From NCBI GenBank assembly GCA_019637075.1, contig JAHBWI010000003.1, positions 248,001-312,000 on the forward strand: 64,000 nt of DNA, given 5' to 3'. A program made the translations under genes and the position numbers. Origin of the DNA: Nitrospiraceae bacterium. Its GTDB lineage: Bacteria; Nitrospirota; Nitrospiria; Nitrospirales; Nitrospiraceae. Shown here piece after piece: positions 2,716-12,115 of the stretch. The notes under the pieces were generated by a model. The model saw nothing but the letters and a program-made list of their open reading frames with translations, was not told where the DNA came from and searched no databases. Each line of letters opens with the position of its first letter. Within the stretch, counting starts at the first letter, position 1.

Positions 2716-3372
2716 TCAGGAGAAGTGCTTGGAGTAGAAGGCCGCCGCTTGTGATCGCCTGCTGATGTGCAATTTTGTGTACACGCTCGCGAGGTAATTC
2801 TTGACCGTCTTGTCGCTCAACCCCAGTTCTGCGGCGATTTCCTTATTGGTTTTTCCCTGAGCAACCAGGGGGAGGAGCCGCTGCTCCTGAGGCGAGAGGG
2901 GGAGGTTCGTGCGTTCCGGCGGTCTAGTTGCCAGGCGTCGCAGGTAGGCGAAGGTATGGTGTGTGACACGGGGGTCGAGAAACGACTGGCCTCGCATGAT
3001 GGTCCGCAACGCTTGGAGTAAAGTCTCCGCGCCTGCATCGCGGAGCACGTAGCCGTGCGCGCCAGTGGCCACGGCCGACAGGAGCGTCTCATCGTCAAGC
3101 CTGTCCGAGAGGAAGAGGAGCCGGGACTTGGGGCATTGCTCCATGATCTCCCTGGCGGCCTCGATGCCGCTGCCGTCCTCCAATCGGAGGTCGAGAATGA
3201 CGATATCGGGACGCAGCCGCGCAATGCCCGAGAGCGCCTCGGACTTGGCGGTCGCTTCTCCGACAACCACAAAGTCTGGTTCGGGCTCGAGCAGCGTACG
3301 CAAGCCCACGCGTACGAGTTCCTCCGGATTGAGAATGTAGACCTCTGACTGCTTCTTTGACGTATGGCTCAT
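2716..3372 (-). CDS. NarL/FixJ-family response regulator with atypical receiver
   Basis: A receiver domain (about residues 11-125) is followed by a LuxR-type helix-turn-helix (about 150-215, with the K-T-N-K-E-I-A and S-D-K-T-V-K-N-Y blocks). The phosphoacceptor-like Asp61 is present. The acidic pair that binds magnesium is replaced by Asn15-Pro16 before Glu17-Glu18, and the conserved receiver Lys is Arg111, so normal phosphorylation is doubtful. The frame is open upstream to 3543, but that would overlap the neighbouring gene by 77 bases. The Met at 3372, giving 218 residues, fits the family length better. It lies downstream of the degenerate kinase-like gene at 3467-4285, and the two were probably transcribed together. 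DNA targets cannot be told from sequence. Confidence 0.85.
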   Translation of the reverse strand: MSHTSKKQSEVYILNPEELVRVGLRTLLEPEPDFVVVGEATAKSEALSGIARLRPDIVILDLRLEDGSGIEAAREIMEQCPKSRLLFLSDRLDDETLLSAVATGAHGYVLRDAGAETLLQALRTIMRGQSFLDPRVTHHTFAYLRRLATRPPERTNLPLSPQEQRLLPLVAQGKTNKEIAAELGLSDKTVKNYLASVYTKLHISRRSQAAAFYSKHFS

Positions 3373-3466
3373 GGATGAATTCCGCTCTCGAGAGTCTTCC
3401 CGGTTCAGTCGTATGATCCGCCCGCGCTCACCGTCGGGGTCGGTAAGACCTTCCCTTGGCGATCGA

Positions 3467-4285
3467 TCATGCATGGCGTGGTATTCCCGGTTGAGGATGC
3501 GTGGGGGATGCCTCTGGTTGCATGTCTGTGTCCTGAGTCCCATGGAGGTGAACCGGGGTCGCCGTACTCAAGACGACGGTCAACTCAAACCGGGGCCGCC
3601 GTCTGAGCATCACGCGTCCGCCGATCCCTGCCACATGAGCGTCGATTTCGTCGATGTTGATGCGAGGCCCGGCGGTTGTCCTGTGGGTGCCGTCTTCGAG
3701 CAAGACGAAGCGGATATGTTGCTTGGCTGAAATCAACATCATGTCCAAGTTGCGCATGCCCGAACAGCGCAACGTGCTGGCCAGCAAGGAGCGCGCGACG
3801 CACAGCAACCGCCGGCTTTCCTCTTGTGTGAGGAGCGCTACACTGCGGGGGTCGACCGAGATGGTGACTCCGAGATTACCGAAGTGCCGTGCTGCGGCCG
3901 CCAACTGGTGGAGTTCCGATTCAAATTCGAATCCCGTGATCACGTCCGCTTCCAGCGAAAGAATGCGTTCCCGGACGCCCTGAATGATTCTGCGCATCTG
4001 CTTGCCGGGGTGGCCGGCCGCCTGCCGATCCCTGGTCTTTCCCGGGGAGAAGGTCGCTTCCAGTTGGTACAAGGGCTCAAGCACCTCATTTTGCAGTACA
4101 TGGGTGAATCGGTCTCGATCCTGAAGCAGTTCCTGAAGCCGGGCATCCTTGGCACGCAATGCCTCGGTGAGCAGCCGATGCTGATCCTGCGCAAGCTCGG
4201 AGGCCGGCACAGGTTTGTGGCGTTGAGGAAGGCTCGGCAGCCGAACAACTGCGGCGAGTTTCTCCCGTGGTTCACGAGGCTTCAT
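3467..4285 (-). CDS. Degenerate NarX-like histidine kinase relative
   Basis: A 272-residue soluble protein begins with a coiled-coil-prone stretch (about 28-60). Around residues 60-80 a segment resembles the HisKA_3 dimerisation helix, but the His of the usual L-H-D is Gln65 (L-Q-N). The C-terminal third has the spacing of a HATPase region but no recognisable N-box or G-box. It therefore looks like a non-catalytic kinase relative, possibly a binding partner or anti-activator for the adjacent response regulator. The ATG at 4285 is preceded by AAGGG. Assignment to the kinase family is an inference from pattern and context; a completely different fold is possible. Confidence 0.6.
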   Translation of the reverse strand: MKPREPREKLAAVVRLPSLPQRHKPVPASELAQDQHRLLTEALRAKDARLQELLQDRDRFTHVLQNEVLEPLYQLEATFSPGKTRDRQAAGHPGKQMRRIIQGVRERILSLEADVITGFEFESELHQLAAAARHFGNLGVTISVDPRSVALLTQEESRRLLCVARSLLASTLRCSGMRNLDMMLISAKQHIRFVLLEDGTHRTTAGPRINIDEIDAHVAGIGGRVMLRRRPRFELTVVLSTATPVHLHGTQDTDMQPEASPTHPQPGIPRHA

Positions 4286-4414
4286 CAGAACCCTTCATAA
4301 CGGTGGTCTGGCATCTCGCTCACTCGTCCTACGGCACCTTGCGGCAGTCCATCTCGATTCATGCCCTAGCAGTAGCACCTAAGGTGATTGTCTCCGGTTC
4401 CGGTGTCGTCGCGC

Positions 4415-4434
4415 ACCTGGCGTAGCCGCCAGGT
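4415..4434. promoter_or_regulatory. lux-box-like operator upstream of luxI
   Basis: The 20-bp dyad ACCTGGCGTAGCCGCCAGGT has perfect 8-bp arms (9 bp if the flanking C/G pair is counted). It has the ACCTG...CAGGT ends and 20-bp length of the classical Vibrio fischeri lux box. It lies 60 bp upstream of the AHL synthase start and just before a candidate -35 hexamer, which is the position expected for LuxR activation and autoinduction. Confidence 0.75.
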
Positions 4435-4438
4435 GAAA

Positions 4439-4467
4439 TTGACCCTGTGTAGGGAGAACCATACGGT
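4439..4467 (+). promoter_or_regulatory. Candidate sigma70-type promoter of luxI
   Basis: TTGACC (4439-4444) and TACGGT (4462-4467) are separated by 17 bp. The -35 matches the consensus at five of six positions and the -10 poorly, as expected for an activator-dependent promoter. The lux-box-like dyad ends four bases upstream. Confidence 0.45.
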
Positions 4468-4494
4468 AGGCCCACGTATTCAAGGAGGTCTGTC

Positions 4495-5253
4495 ATGTAT
4501 GGGATCGATGCTGATGTGCCGCTGCCGTCCGGAGAACGTTACCGCGTGACTGTCTTGTCTTCTGCGGAAGAACTCGATGCTTCTTTCCGCCTGCGCCATC
4601 GGATCTACGTTGACTCATTGGGCTGGGTGCCGGCTTCGCCCGATGGGCGGGAAATTGATCAATACGACGGATGGGCGACGTCGCTCGGAGTCTTCGGGGA
4701 GGAAGATCGGTTGCTGGGTGTCGTGCGCCTGCTGCCGTCCTATGGCCCCATGATGATCGAACATGAATTCGCCGGGCTGTTCGAGGGAAGCTACAACTTG
4801 ATCCGGGAACCGATCGCGAACGAGATCACGAGGCTGGCGATTGATCCCGGCGAGCGGCGTCAAGGCGAGAAGTCGAAAATCTTGCTCGCGTTGCTTCGGG
4901 GAATGTATCGCTGGTTGACGGAACAGTCCGTACGCTATTCATACATGGTGGTGGAGAAACGAGTGCTTCGCATGCTGCGAACCATGGGATTCCCCGGTCG
5001 GCCGCTGGGGCCGGCGATCGCCTTTCCCCCTGCCCATGCATTGACGGTTGCGGCGGTCTTGGACTGGAACGAGTTTCGAGAGCAAAATGCGCGGCTGCGG
5101 CCGTGGTTCCTCGAGTGGATGTCTGAAGGGGCTGCGCCGATCGCGAGGCCGCTCAACGTGCGGTCCGGGGCGGGGCGACAGGCCCTTCATGTCGCCTGTC
5201 AGGCGACATCGGCGGAGTTGGTGGTATCAGCGTTAGGCGGCCCAATCGGATAG
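4495..5253 (+). CDS. luxI: LuxI-type acyl-homoserine-lactone synthase
   Basis: A 252-residue autoinducer synthase that would join an acyl chain to S-adenosylmethionine to give an N-acyl-homoserine lactone. The family residues are present in order: Arg34, Trp44, Glu53, Asp55, Asp58, Arg78, then the E-I-T-R-L block with Glu110 and Arg113. The C-terminus is about 30-50 residues longer than most LuxI proteins. The ATG follows a strong AAGGAGG. The gene is convergent with the AHL-binding LuxR (stop codons 24 bp apart) and has a lux-box-like dyad and promoter upstream, so positive feedback is likely. The acyl chain cannot be predicted from sequence. Confidence 0.92.
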   Translation: MYGIDADVPLPSGERYRVTVLSSAEELDASFRLRHRIYVDSLGWVPASPDGREIDQYDGWATSLGVFGEEDRLLGVVRLLPSYGPMMIEHEFAGLFEGSYNLIREPIANEITRLAIDPGERRQGEKSKILLALLRGMYRWLTEQSVRYSYMVVEKRVLRMLRTMGFPGRPLGPAIAFPPAHALTVAAVLDWNEFREQNARLRPWFLEWMSEGAAPIARPLNVRSGAGRQALHVACQATSAELVVSALGGPIG

Positions 5254-5276
5254 CTGGTCATCGGCACTCCGGCGGA

Positions 5277-6158
5277 TCAGCGTCTCGCCAGGAGGCCCTT
5301 CTCCACCGCATAGGCGACGGCCTGCGTCCTCGAACTGACGTCAAGCTTGTGAAAAATGCTTTCCGCGTGAAACCGAATCGTGCGTTCGCTCACCCCGAGG
5401 ATGCGGGAGATTTCCCAATTGGTCTTTCCGTGGCGCATCCAGTCGAGGACTGTCTGTTCACGCGGGGAAAGATCTGAGCCGGCTGGCGCGATCACGGGCG
5501 GCGTGATCCGCATGATGGCTCCGTGGAGATATCTCGACAAATAGGACAGGGCGGCGTGATACCGAGTCGGTACGGGTTCCTTGTCGTCCGCGAAGGAAAC
5601 GAAACTGGTAAGGCCCTGTGCGGAGTCGGCCTCTCCGATGGTCACGCCCGTGGATAGGCCGAACGCCCGTGCTTCCTCGACGAATTCTTGGCCTTTGAGC
5701 GAGGGGTTGCGTTGGTACGTATTGGTCCAGGCCTGGGTTTTCCCGCCTGAACGGATATGCTGGCGTAACACCGGATCCACGCCGGCATAGCGGTTTTTCA
5801 GGTATAGCATGATCCAGTCGGTGGGATAGCTCACATTGACGATCTTATGGAATCCAGGCGATGGCATGGCGGGATCGACCGTCAGGATTCCAGCGATCAT
5901 TGCTCTGCAGGGTATATGGCGCTGAGTGAGTTGCAGCAGCGTGGTGACTTCAGATTCCGTCTTCGCATGGAAGGCGTAGTGAAAGACCTCCATGAAATTC
6001 AGAAGCTCCGTCTTGGAAAAGTCGGTGAAGGCCTGCAGGGGAAACCGGGGCGCATCTGTTTCGTTCTGCGGCTCCGTCCAGGCGGAGTTGGCCTGCGGAA
6101 GTCGGGGTGCGTTTGGTGAGGAGCTCGATGATGTGGGTGTGGGCGACCCTTTTCGCAT
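5277..6158 (-). CDS. luxR: LuxR-type AHL-responsive transcriptional regulator
   Basis: A 293-residue regulator with an N-terminal autoinducer-binding domain and a C-terminal LuxR helix-turn-helix (about 225-285). All six classical ligand-pocket residues seem present: Trp115, Tyr119, Asp128, Pro129, Trp144 and Gly168 (TraR Trp57, Tyr61, Asp70, Pro71, Trp85, Gly113). This argues for real AHL binding. The frame is open upstream to 6347, but the ATG at 6158 has GGAGGG at good spacing and is chosen. The first 45 residues are Ser/Pro-rich and outside the domain. It is the likely receptor for the product of the convergent luxI gene and the likely reader of the two lux-box-like sites. Confidence 0.9.
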   Translation of the reverse strand: MRKGSPTPTSSSSSPNAPRLPQANSAWTEPQNETDAPRFPLQAFTDFSKTELLNFMEVFHYAFHAKTESEVTTLLQLTQRHIPCRAMIAGILTVDPAMPSPGFHKIVNVSYPTDWIMLYLKNRYAGVDPVLRQHIRSGGKTQAWTNTYQRNPSLKGQEFVEEARAFGLSTGVTIGEADSAQGLTSFVSFADDKEPVPTRYHAALSYLSRYLHGAIMRITPPVIAPAGSDLSPREQTVLDWMRHGKTNWEISRILGVSERTIRFHAESIFHKLDVSSRTQAVAYAVEKGLLARR

Positions 6159-6336
6159 GATTACCCTCCCGCCTCGGCGTCGTGCGCGTTCGAGGCAGCG
6201 ACATGTGTGACTGGAATGCGAGTTCGACGCAGAACCGTTCTCCGAATCGCTCTGCGGGCCCGATTTCGGCCGGCACCGGCCGCGGCGTACGCAACCGGCG
6301 CCGGGAGAAACAAGGCCCGTGGGTACAGGTGCATGG

Positions 6337-7665
6337 TTACGACACACCAGTCAGCTCACCGGACCGAGCGTCACCATACCGGTGCTCGCAGCGGTCGTGG
6401 GTTGCGACGGCGGTGTCGACGCGGGATAAGGCCAACACGATGTTCTTCCCGCCGAATCCGAAACTGTTCACGAGCGCGCGACGCAGATGCGCCGGACGGC
6501 CTTCACCGGCGACGTAGTCCAGATCGCAGGCCGGATCCGGTGTGCTCAAGTTCAATGTCGGTGGAATGAATTGGTGTTCCATCGCCTTGGCCGTGCCGAT
6601 GATCTGGAATGCGCCGCTGGCGGCAAAGGCGTGGCCCAAGGCCGCTTTGAAGGAACTGACCGGAATCTGGTAGGCGTGGCGACCGAGAACGGACTTGATC
6701 GTCTGGGTCTCCATCGCGTCCAACTCGACGGTGCCGAGCCCGCAGGCGTTGACGTAATCGACTTCTTCCGGGAACCAGTGCGCGTGGCTCAGCGCCAATT
6801 GCGCCGCACGTTGCTGATCCGATCCGGTAACGGCGGGTTTCACCATCGAATGCGCATCGCATGTGAACCCCCAACCTTCCAATTCCGCATACATCTTGGC
6901 CCCGCGCGCCCGCGCGTGTTCGTAGTCTTCCAGAATGAAGCTGCCGGCGCCCTCACCCAACACCATGCCGCATCGTGTTTTGTCGAACGGTCTGGGGAGA
7001 TTGCGGATGGAGCCCCGTTCATCCGGTGCGAGTGCGCGGCCGGCGTTCATCGCCGCATACACGCTCGGGTGCAGAGGTGCTTCGCTGCCTCCCGCTACGA
7101 CAATGGAGGACTGGCCGGACTTGATCCATTCATAGGCGCGACCGACGGCGTTGGCCGTGGAGGAGCAGCCGATGGAGTAGGTTTCGCAGGGACCGTGGAT
7201 GCCCAGCACGATCGCGACTTCAGAGGAAATGGCATTGGGAAAGGTCATGCTCATCGTGAATGGGTTGACCCGCTCGTAGGCCGTGCGTGTCGCGGCGTCG
7301 TGGTATTCGAACGCTTCCTTCATCCCTCCGATTGACGTGCCGAACGAGACGCCGATGCAAGCCCGATCCTCCTGTTCGAGGTCGAGGCCGGCATCGCGCG
7401 AGGCCATCATGGCCGAGGCGACAGCGAACTGGGTGGCGCGTCCCATGCGGCGCACTTGCTTGCGATGCAGGAAATCTTCGGGATCGAAGTCTTCCACTTC
7501 GGCCGCCAGACAGGCTTGAAACGGCGTGGTATCAAAGGATCGGAGCGGCTTCACGGCGGATTCGCCCCGGCTGAGGAGATGCCAAAACAAATCGACCGTG
7601 CTGCCTAAGGGGGAGATGACTCCCATACCGGTAATGACGACTCGACGTGCTGTGTGCTGTGCCAT
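6337..7665 (-). CDS. FabF-like beta-ketoacyl synthase with altered catalytic triad
   Basis: A 442-residue thiolase-fold condensing enzyme of the FabF/KAS II group. It has the nucleophile Cys167 in S-I-G-C-S-S-T, the second active-site His345 in K-A-A-L-G-H, and the N-S-F-G-F-G-G loop near the C-terminus. The first catalytic His, normally in N-A-H-G-T, is Cys308 (N-A-C-G-L-G-T, codon TGC). Decarboxylative condensation may be impaired or changed. The ATG at 7665 follows AGGAGGG; the frame itself is open to 7689. It lies 39 bp downstream of the nitroreductase-like gene on the same strand, apparently in one operon behind a lux-box-like dyad. This suggests a quorum-regulated secondary metabolite or acyl modification rather than bulk fatty-acid synthesis. 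Confidence 0.88.
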   Translation of the reverse strand: MAQHTARRVVITGMGVISPLGSTVDLFWHLLSRGESAVKPLRSFDTTPFQACLAAEVEDFDPEDFLHRKQVRRMGRATQFAVASAMMASRDAGLDLEQEDRACIGVSFGTSIGGMKEAFEYHDAATRTAYERVNPFTMSMTFPNAISSEVAIVLGIHGPCETYSIGCSSTANAVGRAYEWIKSGQSSIVVAGGSEAPLHPSVYAAMNAGRALAPDERGSIRNLPRPFDKTRCGMVLGEGAGSFILEDYEHARARGAKMYAELEGWGFTCDAHSMVKPAVTGSDQQRAAQLALSHAHWFPEEVDYVNACGLGTVELDAMETQTIKSVLGRHAYQIPVSSFKAALGHAFAASGAFQIIGTAKAMEHQFIPPTLNLSTPDPACDLDYVAGEGRPAHLRRALVNSFGFGGKNIVLALSRVDTAVATHDRCEHRYGDARSGELTGVS

Positions 7666-7704
7666 AGTGCCCTCCTGTTTCTGAGGCATTGTGAAAAATT
7701 ACCG

Positions 7705-8976
7705 TCAATGGCCATGCCACGTGTGCATATGGTCCCGATGGGCGTCCGTAAGGGCCGACTCGGGATAGAACGTCGCGTAGAAGTCCTCGTCCACATGGTG
7801 AGTTTGACAGGCGACGATCGACTTACAGGCATCCGCATGAGCCGGGAATCGTCCATAGGTGGCGAGGATGTACTCAGCAAAGGCGATGGTCGCCTCAACG
7901 GCGCGTTCGGAATGCCGGGGAACCTGAGTCTCCGATGCCGCCCGCCCCCAGGTGGCACTTCCATGCTTACGATAGACGCCCTCGGAGCCGAATTTGCTCG
8001 CGACCAGACCCTCCACCGCAGCCCGCATGGAAGGCACAAAGGGCGGAGTCGGCCCTTCCCAGACCTGCGGGAGTCCGACCGGGTTGGCGCGCAGCGGCTT
8101 GCCCGGCGGCACGACGAAATGGAAACCCAGCCCGGGATAGATGTGCGGTTCCATGCCGAGCAGGTGACGGCCGCTGCCGACGCTCTGGATACCGCCGCCG
8201 AGGCCGAGTGCTTGCTGCATGAGGGCGATGTGTTCGCAGATGATGCCTTGCTCTTGGATGGCGGTTTCGCAAATGCCGGCATCCAGCTCCCGCAGGCTGA
8301 ACATGCGCCGTTTTGCGAGGTCGTCATGGAGATGCCCGCCGCGGCTCTTGCGGAATGCGTCCAGGCCGCAGCCGGCGTTGCCGTTGTCGGTGTCGACGAC
8401 GAAGTAGCCGGTCTCCTCGCTGAACAGCATCAGCAGAAGATTCAGATACAGCTGGGCGATGTTGGTGACAGGAATGAACAGGGTCGTGCCGGGGCGGTTT
8501 GTGTACCATTGGTTGAACGGCAGCATGAACGGGGCTTCACGCGGGATCTCCATGCGCAAGTTCTGCAGTTGGACGACCTGAAGGTCCCACGGGTGTTCCG
8601 GCCCTGCCGCACCGCGGACGAAGAAGACGCCGTCATCGTTCGTATAGAAGAGATGCGTGGTGTGGGCTGCGCAAGGACTCGGGACAGTCCGGCTCTGGAA
8701 ATTCATGAGGGCTTGGCCTTGGCCGTCGCTGTGGCCGGGGTGGCTGACAAACTGCATGTCGCCGAGGTTGCGCCCCGATTGGCCGACGGCGGCATAGATC
8801 AAGTAGCGTTCTTCCTCGCGGCTCAGCGGGACCGGCTCGTGTCGGCTTTCATAGGTCAAGGGTCCGGTGGGCAGCGTCATGCCACGGCCGAAGCGACGCG
8901 TCTTCCGTTGTTGCAACAGGTCCAGTAGGGTGAACGTGGCCTCCATTGTCGCGGGATGAGCGGCAGTCTGTTTCAT
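7705..8976 (-). CDS. Nitroreductase-like protein of unknown function
   Basis: A 423-residue soluble protein with no signal peptide. Near the N-terminus an R-K-T-R-R-F block and a downstream P-L-S-x-E-E-E segment followed by a small-residue helix recall the FMN-binding start of nitroreductase-family oxidoreductases. A second lobe (about 190-330) contains a G-Y-F-V-V-D-T-D-N-G-N-A-G-C-G segment and a Gly-rich loop. The assignment is weak. The ATG at 8976 is preceded by GGAAGGAGG. It is the first gene of a probable operon with the ketosynthase and lies downstream of a lux-box-like dyad at 9096-9115, so its product likely acts with the ketosynthase in a quorum-controlled pathway. No substrate is proposed. 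Confidence 0.6.
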   Translation of the reverse strand: MKQTAAHPATMEATFTLLDLLQQRKTRRFGRGMTLPTGPLTYESRHEPVPLSREEERYLIYAAVGQSGRNLGDMQFVSHPGHSDGQGQALMNFQSRTVPSPCAAHTTHLFYTNDDGVFFVRGAAGPEHPWDLQVVQLQNLRMEIPREAPFMLPFNQWYTNRPGTTLFIPVTNIAQLYLNLLLMLFSEETGYFVVDTDNGNAGCGLDAFRKSRGGHLHDDLAKRRMFSLRELDAGICETAIQEQGIICEHIALMQQALGLGGGIQSVGSGRHLLGMEPHIYPGLGFHFVVPPGKPLRANPVGLPQVWEGPTPPFVPSMRAAVEGLVASKFGSEGVYRKHGSATWGRAASETQVPRHSERAVEATIAFAEYILATYGRFPAHADACKSIVACQTHHVDEDFYATFYPESALTDAHRDHMHTWHGH

Positions 8977-9068
8977 GGGGTCCTCCTTCCGGGGTTCGTC
9001 GGTCCTCGCGGCCGGCCCGGGCTTGCCGTGCTGTGATGGTACGGGTGTTACGGAAACAGCGTGAGGAG

Positions 9069-9097
9069 ACTCTACGGGAGCGTGGTGGTAGCGTCAC
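9069..9097 (-). promoter_or_regulatory. Candidate promoter of the nitroreductase-like/ketosynthase operon
   Basis: On the minus strand GTGACG (9097-9092) and TAGAGT (9074-9069) are 17 bp apart, each matching consensus at four of six positions. The -35 overlaps the outer edge of the lux-box-like core by two bases, the classical arrangement at LuxR-activated promoters. Confidence 0.4.
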
Positions 9098-9121
9098 CTA
9101 CCCACCGGGGTAGGTGACGCT
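9090..9121. promoter_or_regulatory. Perfect 14-bp-arm dyad containing a lux-box-like core
   Basis: This 32-bp inverted repeat has two perfect 14-bp arms around a 4-bp centre. Its inner 20 bp (9096-9115) begin ACCT and end AGGT, like the site upstream of luxI. It lies 114 bp upstream of the nitroreductase-like gene. The rest of the 308-bp gap (8977-9284) holds only a small 7-bp-arm hairpin at 9241-9257. Confidence 0.7.
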
Positions 9122-9284: not shown

Positions 9285-10235
9285 TTACTTGGACTGGTCG
9301 TGCGGAGGGCGCGGCGAACGGTCATCGCTGGGTGGCGATGAGGGAATCAGTCGATGCTGCTCCCCATTTTGCCAGTAGGCAATCGCGCTCCAGCGGTTTT
9401 CGACTCCAATCTTTTGGAAGATGTTCTTGAGGTGAAACTTGATCGTGTTGAGGCTGACCTTCAGGATGACGGAAATTTCCCAGTTCGTTTTGCCCGCGGC
9501 GACCCAGCGGAGGATTTCTTCCTCACGTTTGCTCAGCAGCAATGAGGGCCCCGGCGGTTGCTGCGGTTGCCGTACTGTGTTGCAGCGCAGATAACTGAGG
9601 TGAAAATGGGGCGTCAGGATATCTAGGAGCAAGCGCAGCTTTTGGGTTTGCTTTGGGTCGAAATTGCTGAAGGCGAAATAGGAGCAGCTGCCGTTGGCGC
9701 CGCGGACTCCGGCAGATAGACAGGTCTTGATGTTGAAATCGAGCTTGAGGGAGGTCACTTCCTTGGGCTCGTAATGCTGCGGCACATCGGCGCTGGACGT
9801 TACGGTCTGTCCGGATGTCAGGAGCCGGTGGACCGCCGGGTCGCTGGCCAGACCTTGGCCCATGTACAGTTGGCAGAATTCCTGTGGGTATGTGGAATGT
9901 CCAATTGAGGGATCGACACCGCGGACCAGGTTGACGGCACCGCAGCCGGAGAATTCATACGGGACGACCCGTTGTACCGCTGAAACCAGTTGCCACACGC
10001 CATCCGGTCTAGCCAGTGCGCGCGCTTCGTACATGATCTCCCCGAGTCGCTGGAACTCTTTGGAGGAGAACTCGGGCCGATTCATGCCGATCCCTCGAGG
10101 TACTTGGGTGGCGTTGGCGAACGGAGACGCCTGTGCTCGATCGTCTGTGAGCGTAAATCGGATGGAGGAGAAGGCCGGTCGTGTACGGCGGCCTGTCCTC
10201 TCGGGCGACACATGGCCGATCTCCAGCGCTGTCAT
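9285..10235 (-). CDS. LuxR-family regulator, probable non-AHL 'solo'
   Basis: A 316-residue protein with an autoinducer-domain-like N-terminal half and a C-terminal LuxR helix-turn-helix containing the K-T-N-W-E-I block also seen in the luxR at 5277. In the ligand domain Tyr and Asp-Pro of the pocket are kept (Q-L-Y, S-D-P), but the first Trp is Phe and the second Trp is missing, so binding of a standard AHL is doubtful. Two starts are plausible. The ATG at 10235 has GGAGG, and the ATG at 10085 has GAGGGA and gives the usual family length. It may tune the neighbouring quorum genes or the envelope operon upstream; this is inferred from position only. Confidence 0.8.
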   Translation of the reverse strand: MTALEIGHVSPERTGRRTRPAFSSIRFTLTDDRAQASPFANATQVPRGIGMNRPEFSSKEFQRLGEIMYEARALARPDGVWQLVSAVQRVVPYEFSGCGAVNLVRGVDPSIGHSTYPQEFCQLYMGQGLASDPAVHRLLTSGQTVTSSADVPQHYEPKEVTSLKLDFNIKTCLSAGVRGANGSCSYFAFSNFDPKQTQKLRLLLDILTPHFHLSYLRCNTVRQPQQPPGPSLLLSKREEEILRWVAAGKTNWEISVILKVSLNTIKFHLKNIFQKIGVENRWSAIAYWQNGEQHRLIPSSPPSDDRSPRPPHDQSK

Positions 10236-10334: not shown

Positions 10335-11312
10335 TTACCGTTGAATGCGAAGGATCGGTCCGAGCGTCAGCCACTTGGTGGGACCCAGGGCTGCCATGTG
10401 GGGCAGGTGACCGACGTACCAGAGGACTATGTCCTGCTCCTGAACGCTCTGATTGTCTTCGTCGTAGCCGAGTTGACCGCGCGCGCCGAAGATCCAAGGG
10501 CCGTCCTCTGCGGCGGTGGCCCGCCGGACGGCGATATCGTGATCGGCAAAACGGTCACGCTCTCCGTCCCCGGCCAGGGGTGGGTAGCCGGATCCCGGGA
10601 ATATCCAGACTCCGTGTCCGGTCGGATGGTCACGTACGAACCACACACGGTGCGTGGAGGGGTTCTTTACGTCGTTTCGCTCGTTCGTGTACTTGCGCCA
10701 GCCAGGCCCCCAGCCCTCATCCGGGCCGCCGTCGTCATGGAGGAACACCTGATCCATGCCGTTGCCGTCGATATCGAAATCAATACGCCAATAGGGATGG
10801 TGATGGTGGTTGGTATTGCAGGAGAGCCCCCGACTTTGCAGCACCGGCCGAATCTCCCCATCGTCGGAGAGGTGCCAGGATTGATAGAGATGGTATTCGC
10901 CGATGCGTGCATAGACACCCAACTCCAACCATTTGACGCCGCCTTGTTCGGTAGTCTCAATGCAAATCTTCTGATTCCCGCAGTTGACGATTGGGACGAG
11001 GTCCTGCCATCGCAAGCGGTCCTGGAAAGGCCCACAACGGCCGCTTTCAGCGCGAGAGCCGAACCAGGTGAACGGGTTCCACCAGACCCGTTCCTTCACA
11101 TACTTCACGCGAATGACCGGCAAACTGGCTTTGGACAGGACGAGTTCGCCGGCGTAGCGCACATCCCGCAACGCCAGACCGGTATTGTCTCGGACCTCCC
11201 AATCGAAACTCCATCGTCCCCAGTCGATGTGCTCGGATTGCGTATCAGCCAGTGCAGGCTGTCCATAGAAGAGCAGGAGGAGGAGAATGGCGGTACGTGC
11301 CAAGCGATACAT
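10335..11312 (-). CDS. Copper amine oxidase catalytic-domain homologue, secreted
   Basis: A signal peptide (residues 1 to about 22, cut after A-L-A) precedes a domain matching the catalytic beta-sandwich of copper amine oxidases. Markers are a W-x-F-x-W opening with G-L-A-L-R-D-V-R-Y, a His cluster at 169-172 followed by D-F-D-I-D-G (the H-x-H copper ligands), and a C-terminal D-I-V-L-W-Y with nearby His. The residue where the topaquinone Tyr is expected is Tyr140, but its usual N-Y-[DE] setting is E-Y-H. It is short for the family (325 against about 630-750) because the N2/N3 domains seem to be encoded by the preceding gene. The start at 11312 has GGAGG; an ATG at 11327 overlaps the upstream stop. 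Last gene of a five-gene operon. Confidence 0.7.
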   Translation of the reverse strand: MYRLARTAILLLLLFYGQPALADTQSEHIDWGRWSFDWEVRDNTGLALRDVRYAGELVLSKASLPVIRVKYVKERVWWNPFTWFGSRAESGRCGPFQDRLRWQDLVPIVNCGNQKICIETTEQGGVKWLELGVYARIGEYHLYQSWHLSDDGEIRPVLQSRGLSCNTNHHHHPYWRIDFDIDGNGMDQVFLHDDGGPDEGWGPGWRKYTNERNDVKNPSTHRVWFVRDHPTGHGVWIFPGSGYPPLAGDGERDRFADHDIAVRRATAAEDGPWIFGARGQLGYDEDNQSVQEQDIVLWYVGHLPHMAALGPTKWLTLGPILRIQR

Positions 11313-11323
11313 GAGACCTCCGT

Positions 11324-12115
11324 TCATGAGCGCGCCGGTTCTTCGCCTGCGTCCAGGACCCGGTCTTCGGTGAGGTCGACGACGGCCCAGTATTTTGGGT
11401 CGCCGTCCTGGCCCTGGGAAAATGTGATCCAGATCACGCGGTGGGCAAAGCCGGGATCGTTCCGGAAAAACCCGCGGTCCGGCTGCATCAGCAGCCCGTG
11501 CCCTTCAAGTTGCTGCACCTTACCCGCCAAGCGTGAATCGGTTCGTGCCAACTCAATCCCGCGTTGGATGTCTTGCGGGCCTTCCGGTGGAAGATAGCCG
11601 TCCGCCCGCTCGACGCTAAGAACGCCGCTCTCCGTCATGCGGACGTCCACGGCGGTATTGTGGCTATAGCTGTAGTAGAGCAGTCGAGTCACCGAGGCTT
11701 CCTTCCGACAGCAGCCGAAGGAAACTTTCCCGTCCGGCGGCACGCGGTACGCCTCGACAAATCCCCAGCGCGGGCCGAGCAACGCGGCCACACGCGGATC
11801 GGATTCCGCTGCCCGGCGCAGGGATTGAATCTGCTGCGTGCTGAGCACTACGCCGGTGTTCGGTGTTCGTACAGGAAGTCCCGCCGCGACGGTTCCGGCC
11901 ATGTTGGGTTTGACGTGACCGGCTGCATCGTCCGACACGAATTCGAGGCGGTGCGGCGTCGGGACCGTTGGCGGCAGCGTAGCTTTGGTAAGGGCGGTTT
12001 CAGGATCATTCGGGCCGAAGGGGCCGCGTGATGTGGCGTCCAGGCTGCACCCCGTCCAGATTGTCACTAAGGCCAGCAGAGCGACGGGGCTTGGCCGCAT
12101 GCCGATCGAACTCAT
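11324..12115 (-). CDS. Lipoprotein resembling copper amine oxidase N2/N3 domains
   Basis: A 263-residue protein with a signal sequence ending in a lipobox-like W-T-G-C (Cys about residue 23), so probably membrane-anchored. Residues about 90-140 (an S-T-Q-Q-I-x-x-L-R-R-A opening, then D-P-R-V-x-x-L-L-G) and about 165-260 (ending W-A-V-V-D-L-T-E-D-R-V) resemble the small N2 and N3 domains that precede the catalytic domain in copper amine oxidases. A G-C-C-R pair lies between them. Its stop almost abuts the catalytic-domain gene, so the two products likely form one complex. The assignment to N2/N3 rests on pattern and order, not on a search. Confidence 0.6.
   Translation of the reverse strand: MSSIGMRPSPVALLALVTIWTGCSLDATSRGPFGPNDPETALTKATLPPTVPTPHRLEFVSDDAAGHVKPNMAGTVAAGLPVRTPNTGVVLSTQQIQSLRRAAESDPRVAALLGPRWGFVEAYRVPPDGKVSFGCCRKEASVTRLLYYSYSHNTAVDVRMTESGVLSVERADGYLPPEGPQDIQRGIELARTDSRLAGKVQQLEGHGLLMQPDRGFFRNDPGFAHRVIWITFSQGQDGDPKYWAVVDLTEDRVLDAGEEPARS

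Follow-up and report, generated by a model that had tools for sequence, protein, structure and literature searches.

Two inverted repeats with the outline of a lux box lie in the window, a stretch of 64,000 nucleotides from a nitrite-oxidising Nitrospiraceae bacterium, one ahead of a luxI gene and the other ahead of an operon coding for a nitroreductase-like protein and a ketosynthase. The locus raises the question of whether these repeats belong to one regulon, in which a LuxR protein bound to acyl-homoserine lactone (AHL) activates luxI and the operon together, as an earlier note on this DNA had predicted, or whether they serve different regulators. The features concerned are listed with their window coordinates.

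2716-3543, minus strand: NarL-type response regulator (family match)
3467-4285, minus strand: divergent gene across Box A, probably a degenerate NarX-type histidine kinase
4414-4435, no strand: Box A, lux box of luxI, ACCTGGCG-N4-CGCCAGGT, 18/20 to the proven NspR1 box
4439-4467, plus strand: putative luxI promoter, TTGACC (4439-4444), 17 bp, TACGGT (4462-4467)
4495-5253, plus strand: luxI, AHL synthase (Pfam PF00765, 1e-18)
5277-6158, minus strand: LuxR-A, canonical AHL receptor, with PF03472 (autoinducer-binding) and PF00196 (GerE helix-turn-helix, HTH)
6337-7689, minus strand: KS, ketosynthase of the Box B operon (NCBIfam FabF-like)
7705-8976, minus strand: NTR, nitroreductase-like, first gene of the operon, with orthologues in 45 of 175 genomes
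9069-9097, minus strand: predicted operon promoter, TAGAGT -10 (9074-9069) and GTGACG -35-like hexamer (9097-9092)
9090-9121, no strand: Box B, predicted operator of the NTR-KS operon, core CCTACCC-N4-GGGTAGG at 9097-9114
9285-10235, minus strand: LuxR-B, LuxR-family regulator and candidate for Box B, with PF03472 (1.2e-08) and PF00196

Two dyads with shared ends and different arms

The first dyad, ACCTGGCGTAGCCGCCAGGT at 4415-4434, has the form ACCT-N12-AGGT and lies ahead of luxI; its full perfect extent is 4414-4435, organized as CACCTGGCG-TAGC-CGCCAGGTG with 9-bp arms and a 4-bp spacer. The second spans 32 bp at 9090-9121 (AGCGTCACCTACCC-ACCG-GGGTAGGTGACGCT, with 14-bp perfect arms), and its inner 20 bp (9096-9115) start with ACCT and end with AGGT. 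The window sequence thus bears out the presence of both elements, each with a 20-bp stretch ending in ACCT and AGGT. No other ACCT-N12-AGGT match occurs in the window, where 0.42 would be expected and where 9 of 100 shuffles have two or more, and no other dyad there combines a 4-bp spacer with arms of 8 bp or longer; for arms of 9 bp or longer, two are observed vs 0.3 in shuffles.

At the scale of the 4.06-Mb genome the loose pattern is not enriched (34 sites vs 46 for the reversed control), so the dyads are better judged by their arms and conservation; the genome search with ACCT(N12)AGGT that had been proposed was accordingly dropped as a regulon finder. The same search with the full arms is informative, as each dyad has one perfect copy in the genome and the next best site has two mismatches. 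The dyads are therefore not the common genomic repeats that would have spoken against the prediction. Near-matches to Box A and Box B elsewhere in this genome are no commoner than in the reversed control. Other palindromes are also present: a perfect dyad with 10-bp arms, ATGTCGCCTG-T-CAGGCGACAT, lies at 5189-5209 in the 3' end of luxI, and ACGTACCC-N4-GGGTACGC has at least five copies in the genome of the window (G000: C1:76685, C2:333740, C2:505639, C2:534206 and C4:28749).

Dyad 2 and Box A differ at 8 of the 16 arm positions: the outer CCT/AGG are common to both, and the changes fall in the inner four positions of either arm, as would fit paralogous regulators of different specificity. Dyad 2 is nonetheless fairly called lux-box-like, as it keeps the outer CCT/AGG and a class-II spacing. 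Judged by sequence, we take the two dyads to be real, yet different, operators.

Pairs of -35 and -10 hexamers with 17-bp spacing are found at both dyads, in agreement with the earlier description, and both are weak enough that a sigma-70 consensus scan reports neither the luxI nor the operon promoter. The promoter element that relatives keep at luxI is (G)AACCAT (window 4457-4462). At the operon, GTGACG overlaps the edge of Box B with 17-bp spacing to TAGAGT, and T41, A42 and T46 of a TAnnnT -10, counted from the start of the Box B core, are invariant in 29 thinned sequences. With this fixed register the centre of the box falls ~43 bp ahead of the start site, which is where LuxR-type activators of class II act, and both boxes have the class-II distance to a -10. 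On its divergent side, Box A of relatives mostly has TA at the same positions 41 and 42; in the window TAnnnT was not found on that side, so activation of the kinase gene from Box A is doubtful in this organism.

Box A and the quorum-sensing genes

The synthase and receptor genes have the features of a complete AHL circuit. The luxI product scores 68 bits against PF00765 (cut-off 24), and LuxR-A, encoded convergently with luxI in an open frame that runs on to 6347, has CviR as its nearest protein of solved structure. AHL-responsive LuxR proteins have nine invariant residues, of which six are in the ligand-binding domain (TraR W57, Y61, D70, P71, W85 and G113; PMC4338825). LuxR-A has the corresponding W, Y, D, P, W and G in 32 of 32 sequences, and thus the intact AHL pocket, as well as the HTH, of a cognate LuxR. 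Box A is placed as a lux box upstream of luxI, starting 80 bp ahead of the start codon, and on the better strand it is identical to the NspR1 lux box at 18 of 20 positions, with both differences in the spacer. The protein encoded at 3467-4285, across Box A, has no family match in the window, and positional homologues of its gene score as HisKA_3/HATPase_c.

Co-occurrence was counted in 175 genomes of the family; kinship is not modelled in the counts, and the Fisher p-values are only indicative and overstate independence because orthologues share descent. Relatives of luxI are present in 93 genomes (a single-sequence search of the named genome collection found none), and the Box A core, CCTGGCG-N4-CGCCAGG, in 90, of which 84 have luxI. 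The exact core is thus present in 84 of 93 luxI genomes, and also in 82 of 92 LuxR-A genomes; Box A of N. moscoviensis has one mismatch. In G084 (L258:5211-5228) and G008 (L254:5855-5872) there is a Box A just upstream of mtnB, the gene for methylthioribulose-1-phosphate dehydratase. As 5'-methylthioadenosine is a by-product of AHL synthesis, quorum sensing may induce by-product recycling in these two genomes.

Box B, LuxR-B and the NTR-KS operon

The Box B core is found in 45 of the 175 genomes vs three for its reversed control, and occurs once per genome except in G158, where NTR is duplicated and both copies have the core. It is present in 44 of 45 NTR genomes and 44 of 46 LuxR-B carriers, an association that is unable to tell LuxR-B from another regulator travelling with the operon. 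G070 has NTR and LuxR-B and no recognisable Box B. One Box B genome is without NTR. The exact Box B in G165 lies away from NTR and was set aside as chance or unrelated. Box B is upstream of NTR in every relative examined; its core, CCTACCC...GGGTAGG, is kept together with the -10, TAnnnT, whereas the outer arms, the leading A of ACCT and the other promoter bases have diverged. All named relatives in which the operon was found belong to Nitrospira and include N. defluvii and N. moscoviensis.

The operator is not gained and lost with luxI or LuxR-A. Box B and luxI are negatively associated (both in 8 genomes, Box B alone in 37, luxI alone in 85), and the 37 of 45 Box B genomes without luxI, which include every one of the 27 from the N. 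defluvii genus, mostly lack LuxR-A too; Box A is in none of 29 N. defluvii-genus genomes. The gene order in N. moscoviensis is that of the window (response regulator, kinase, luxI, LuxR-A, KS, NTR, Box B, LuxR-B), and in the 27 NTR genomes of the N. defluvii genus it is response regulator, KS, NTR, Box B, LuxR-B and the next genes; it is the same order minus the divergent kinase, luxI and LuxR-A, so that the NarL-type response regulator directly adjoins the KS gene. No credible luxI or LuxR-A remnants were found between these two genes in the N. defluvii group. Because N. moscoviensis shares the window order, loss of the quorum-sensing genes in this group appears the simpler reading. In a second group (G074, G090, G102 and G119), luxI is gone, Box A and Box B are both kept, and LuxR-A is reduced to an HTH-containing remnant or a short protein, e.g. 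a 184-residue protein with a LuxR-A-type recognition helix in G074. Box B thus persists where quorum sensing is absent, and so is independent of the AHL circuit. We note that LuxR-A-type HTH proteins seemingly lacking an autoinducer-binding domain are encoded at L231:7778-8332 and L232:10617-11450 in luxI-less genomes, the former adjoining the retained Box A; these are possible signal-independent descendants of the quorum receptor.

The regulator gene that adjoins Box B, LuxR-B, was absent from the earlier note. Its conserved part starts near 10085, and it has both PF03472 and PF00196 and occurs without luxI in 37 NTR genomes, as is characteristic of a LuxR solo. Among 46 LuxR-B sequences Y, D and P are kept, and three of the six pocket positions are altered (W57 to F, L or H; W85 to S, once to T; G113 to C), a departure from the invariant residues as in the non-AHL subgroup of LuxR solos, with the proviso that pocket changes alone do not prove AHL unbound. 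The recognition helices are invariant within each group and differ between them, ERT[VI]RFH in LuxR-A vs LNT[VI]KFHLKN in LuxR-B.

These observations bear unequally on the ways in which the two dyads could be read. That AHL-bound LuxR-A binds both, activating luxI and the NTR-KS operon together, draws on the CCT-N14-AGG ends and the common promoter register of the two 20-bp dyads, and on the quorum-sensing genes being neighbours of the operon in N. moscoviensis, the window and a few further cases. We nevertheless regard it as improbable: half of the arm bases differ, the operon has the separately conserved Box B core and not Box A even in luxI genomes, and Box B is present in 37 luxI-less genomes, with the 27 carriers of the N. 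defluvii genus having neither LuxR-A nor Box A. The quorum-sensing genes are no more than a few kb from the operon in a number of luxI genomes, the window and N. moscoviensis among them, and this proximity does suggest some functional link. Their recurrent closeness would be accounted for by a cascade, in which AHL-bound LuxR-A controls LuxR-B and, by way of LuxR-B acting at Box B, the operon. Such an arrangement is compatible with LuxR-B as the Box B regulator and has a counterpart in the order (luxI)-Box A-kinase-LuxR-B-Box B-NTR of G159, also seen in G158 and G138, whose contigs end early; in this order LuxR-B and the kinase gene beside Box A have a common orientation. A cascade is unlikely all the same, as LuxR-B of the window and of the N. 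defluvii group follows the gene at 10335-11327 and has no Box A close to it, and the genome of the window has a single Box A.

The nature of dyad 2 could also be questioned. A pattern scan calls it terminator-like on the plus strand, and its arms outside the core are symmetric with differing letters in some genomes, as in an RNA hairpin; yet the transcribed minus strand has no T run, the T run of the plus strand is weak and missing from the relatives examined, no listed plus-strand gene reads into the dyad, and the core has an invariant sequence at a fixed distance from the -10 in the manner of an operator, all of which make a terminator or hairpin highly improbable. Within-genome arm symmetry beyond the cores of Box A and Box B exceeds that of permuted pairing (p ~0.003 and ~0.001), with relatedness uncontrolled, and could come from palindrome-correcting mutation or extended protein contacts. 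Arm covariation was not used as evidence for an RNA hairpin, since relatedness is uncontrolled and palindrome-correcting mutation could cause the symmetry. Lastly, another regulator could act at Box B, for example the NarL-type response regulator (2716-3543), which is of the same HTH superfamily and adjoins the KS gene in the N. defluvii group; outside that group it is no constant close neighbour of Box B, unlike LuxR-B, and we consider this role quite improbable for it.

The arrangement that we favour, and consider very probable, is that of two separate LuxR-family circuits, one comprising LuxR-A, Box A and luxI and the other LuxR-B, Box B and the NTR-KS operon. What the computation shows is the sites, how they are conserved and co-occur with the genes, the constant register of the -10 and the altered residues. 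LuxR-A and the AHL made by LuxI would bind Box A and activate luxI in an autoinduction loop, and Box A in relatives also faces the divergent histidine-kinase gene. LuxR-B, a solo with an altered pocket, would bind Box B, centred ~43 bp ahead of the start site, and, as a class-II activator, turn on the NTR-KS operon in response to something besides local AHL, or with no ligand. We infer from sequence each of its three attributes: binding to Box B, activation rather than repression, and unresponsiveness to AHL. The prediction that AHL-bound LuxR activates both targets accordingly divides. For luxI it stands, with a near-identical box proven in a relative, and by that analogy appears right and essentially known already in kind; for the operon it is not upheld, because Box B has another core, tracks LuxR-B and survives without luxI in 37 genomes, and the operon is most likely the target of a LuxR solo.

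The operon itself has unusual coding content. NTR of the window has no Pfam match; an orthologue with 54% identity matches Nitroreductase at E 0.0043, below the cut-off, and a solved-structure search with NTR gave nothing credible. Its AlphaFold model, built with 21 sequences, has a mean pLDDT of 49.9 and is therefore unfit for a fold search. KS keeps the active-site Cys, and one catalytic His is replaced by Cys within a NACGLGT or NACGLGS motif, of which CGLG is invariant in 16 of 16 orthologues; FabF-type enzymes have NAHGT-like residues at the NACGLG position. Without one catalytic His, KS may perhaps be no ordinary condensing enzyme. LuxR-A is on the same strand as KS in the window, about 180 bp away, and could be co-transcribed behind it. 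In N. moscoviensis a cytochrome P450-like gene (L226:9912-11531) is divergent from NTR with Box B between them, and in G074 a P450-like gene (L231:6469-7737) follows KS; both P450-like labels come from sequence, with no family search behind them. Such neighbours suggest that the operon would make a tailored small molecule.

Comparison with known systems

A 2025 comparison of Nitrospirales described as unclear whether the LuxR of luxI-less lineage I answers the AHLs of others (PMC12342949). That question is now testable, with a candidate protein, a conserved operator and a single target operon, and LuxR-B offers residue-level reasons to expect a non-AHL signal. We tentatively put forward, as a reading that may well not hold, that the LuxR solo of luxI-less lineage I Nitrospira regulates without AHL, through an operator of its own that derives from the lux box (CCTACCC-N4-GGGTAGG), and has a single target in each genome, the NTR-KS operon, which makes an uncharacterised product, and that it forms a second tier below the AHL circuit in some luxI relatives. 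Counting ACCT-N12-AGGT as one regulon merges two circuits, and is a trap for pattern-matched lux-box predictions. The pairing of Box B with LuxR-B seems undescribed in the searchable papers, among which many subscription journals are missing.

The closest counterpart of the luxI circuit is NspR1/NspI of an activated-sludge Nitrospira, where EMSA, in which NspR1 required RNA polymerase, and a GFP reporter identified ACCTGGCGGTTCCGCCAGGT, 81 bp ahead of nspI, as the site at which NspR1 and C8-HSL activate that gene (PMC8553950). AHL-dependent activation of a luxI-type gene was thus shown for a relative, in an E. coli host, and NspR1 activates a divergent gene too (PMC8553950). In the screen described there, the response came from the perfect box alone, and other candidates, with at least two differences, gave none, except for one weak responder that needed the co-expressed native sigma factor (PMC8553950). 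Box A differs from that box at two bases, in the spacer on the better strand, and lies at 80 rather than 81 bp; both loci have a divergent gene, which codes for a GGDEF/EAL protein beside nspI and probably for a degenerate NarX-type kinase here. Neither Box B nor a LuxR-B circuit is described in the available portion of that paper (PMC8553950).

For LuxR-B, the best NCBIfam match is EpsA, the XrtB/PEP-CTERM-associated regulator (TIGR03020), at 95.5 bits against a 170-bit cut-off, which does not assign it to that family. Another likeness is to the N. defluvii LuxR solo D8PAV3, whose residues are published as F Y D P gap C E L G (PMC4338825). The AHL positions of LuxR-B are mostly F Y D P S C, and from this residue pattern, rather than an accession match, D8PAV3 is probably the LuxR-B protein; the available text on D8PAV3 gives no DNA target for it (PMC4338825), whereas an operator and an operon are proposed here. 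LuxR-B is also reminiscent of the OryR and PsoR solos, which similarly have altered pocket residues and a 20-bp dyad as target, and whose type responds to plant-derived compounds (PMC4338825).
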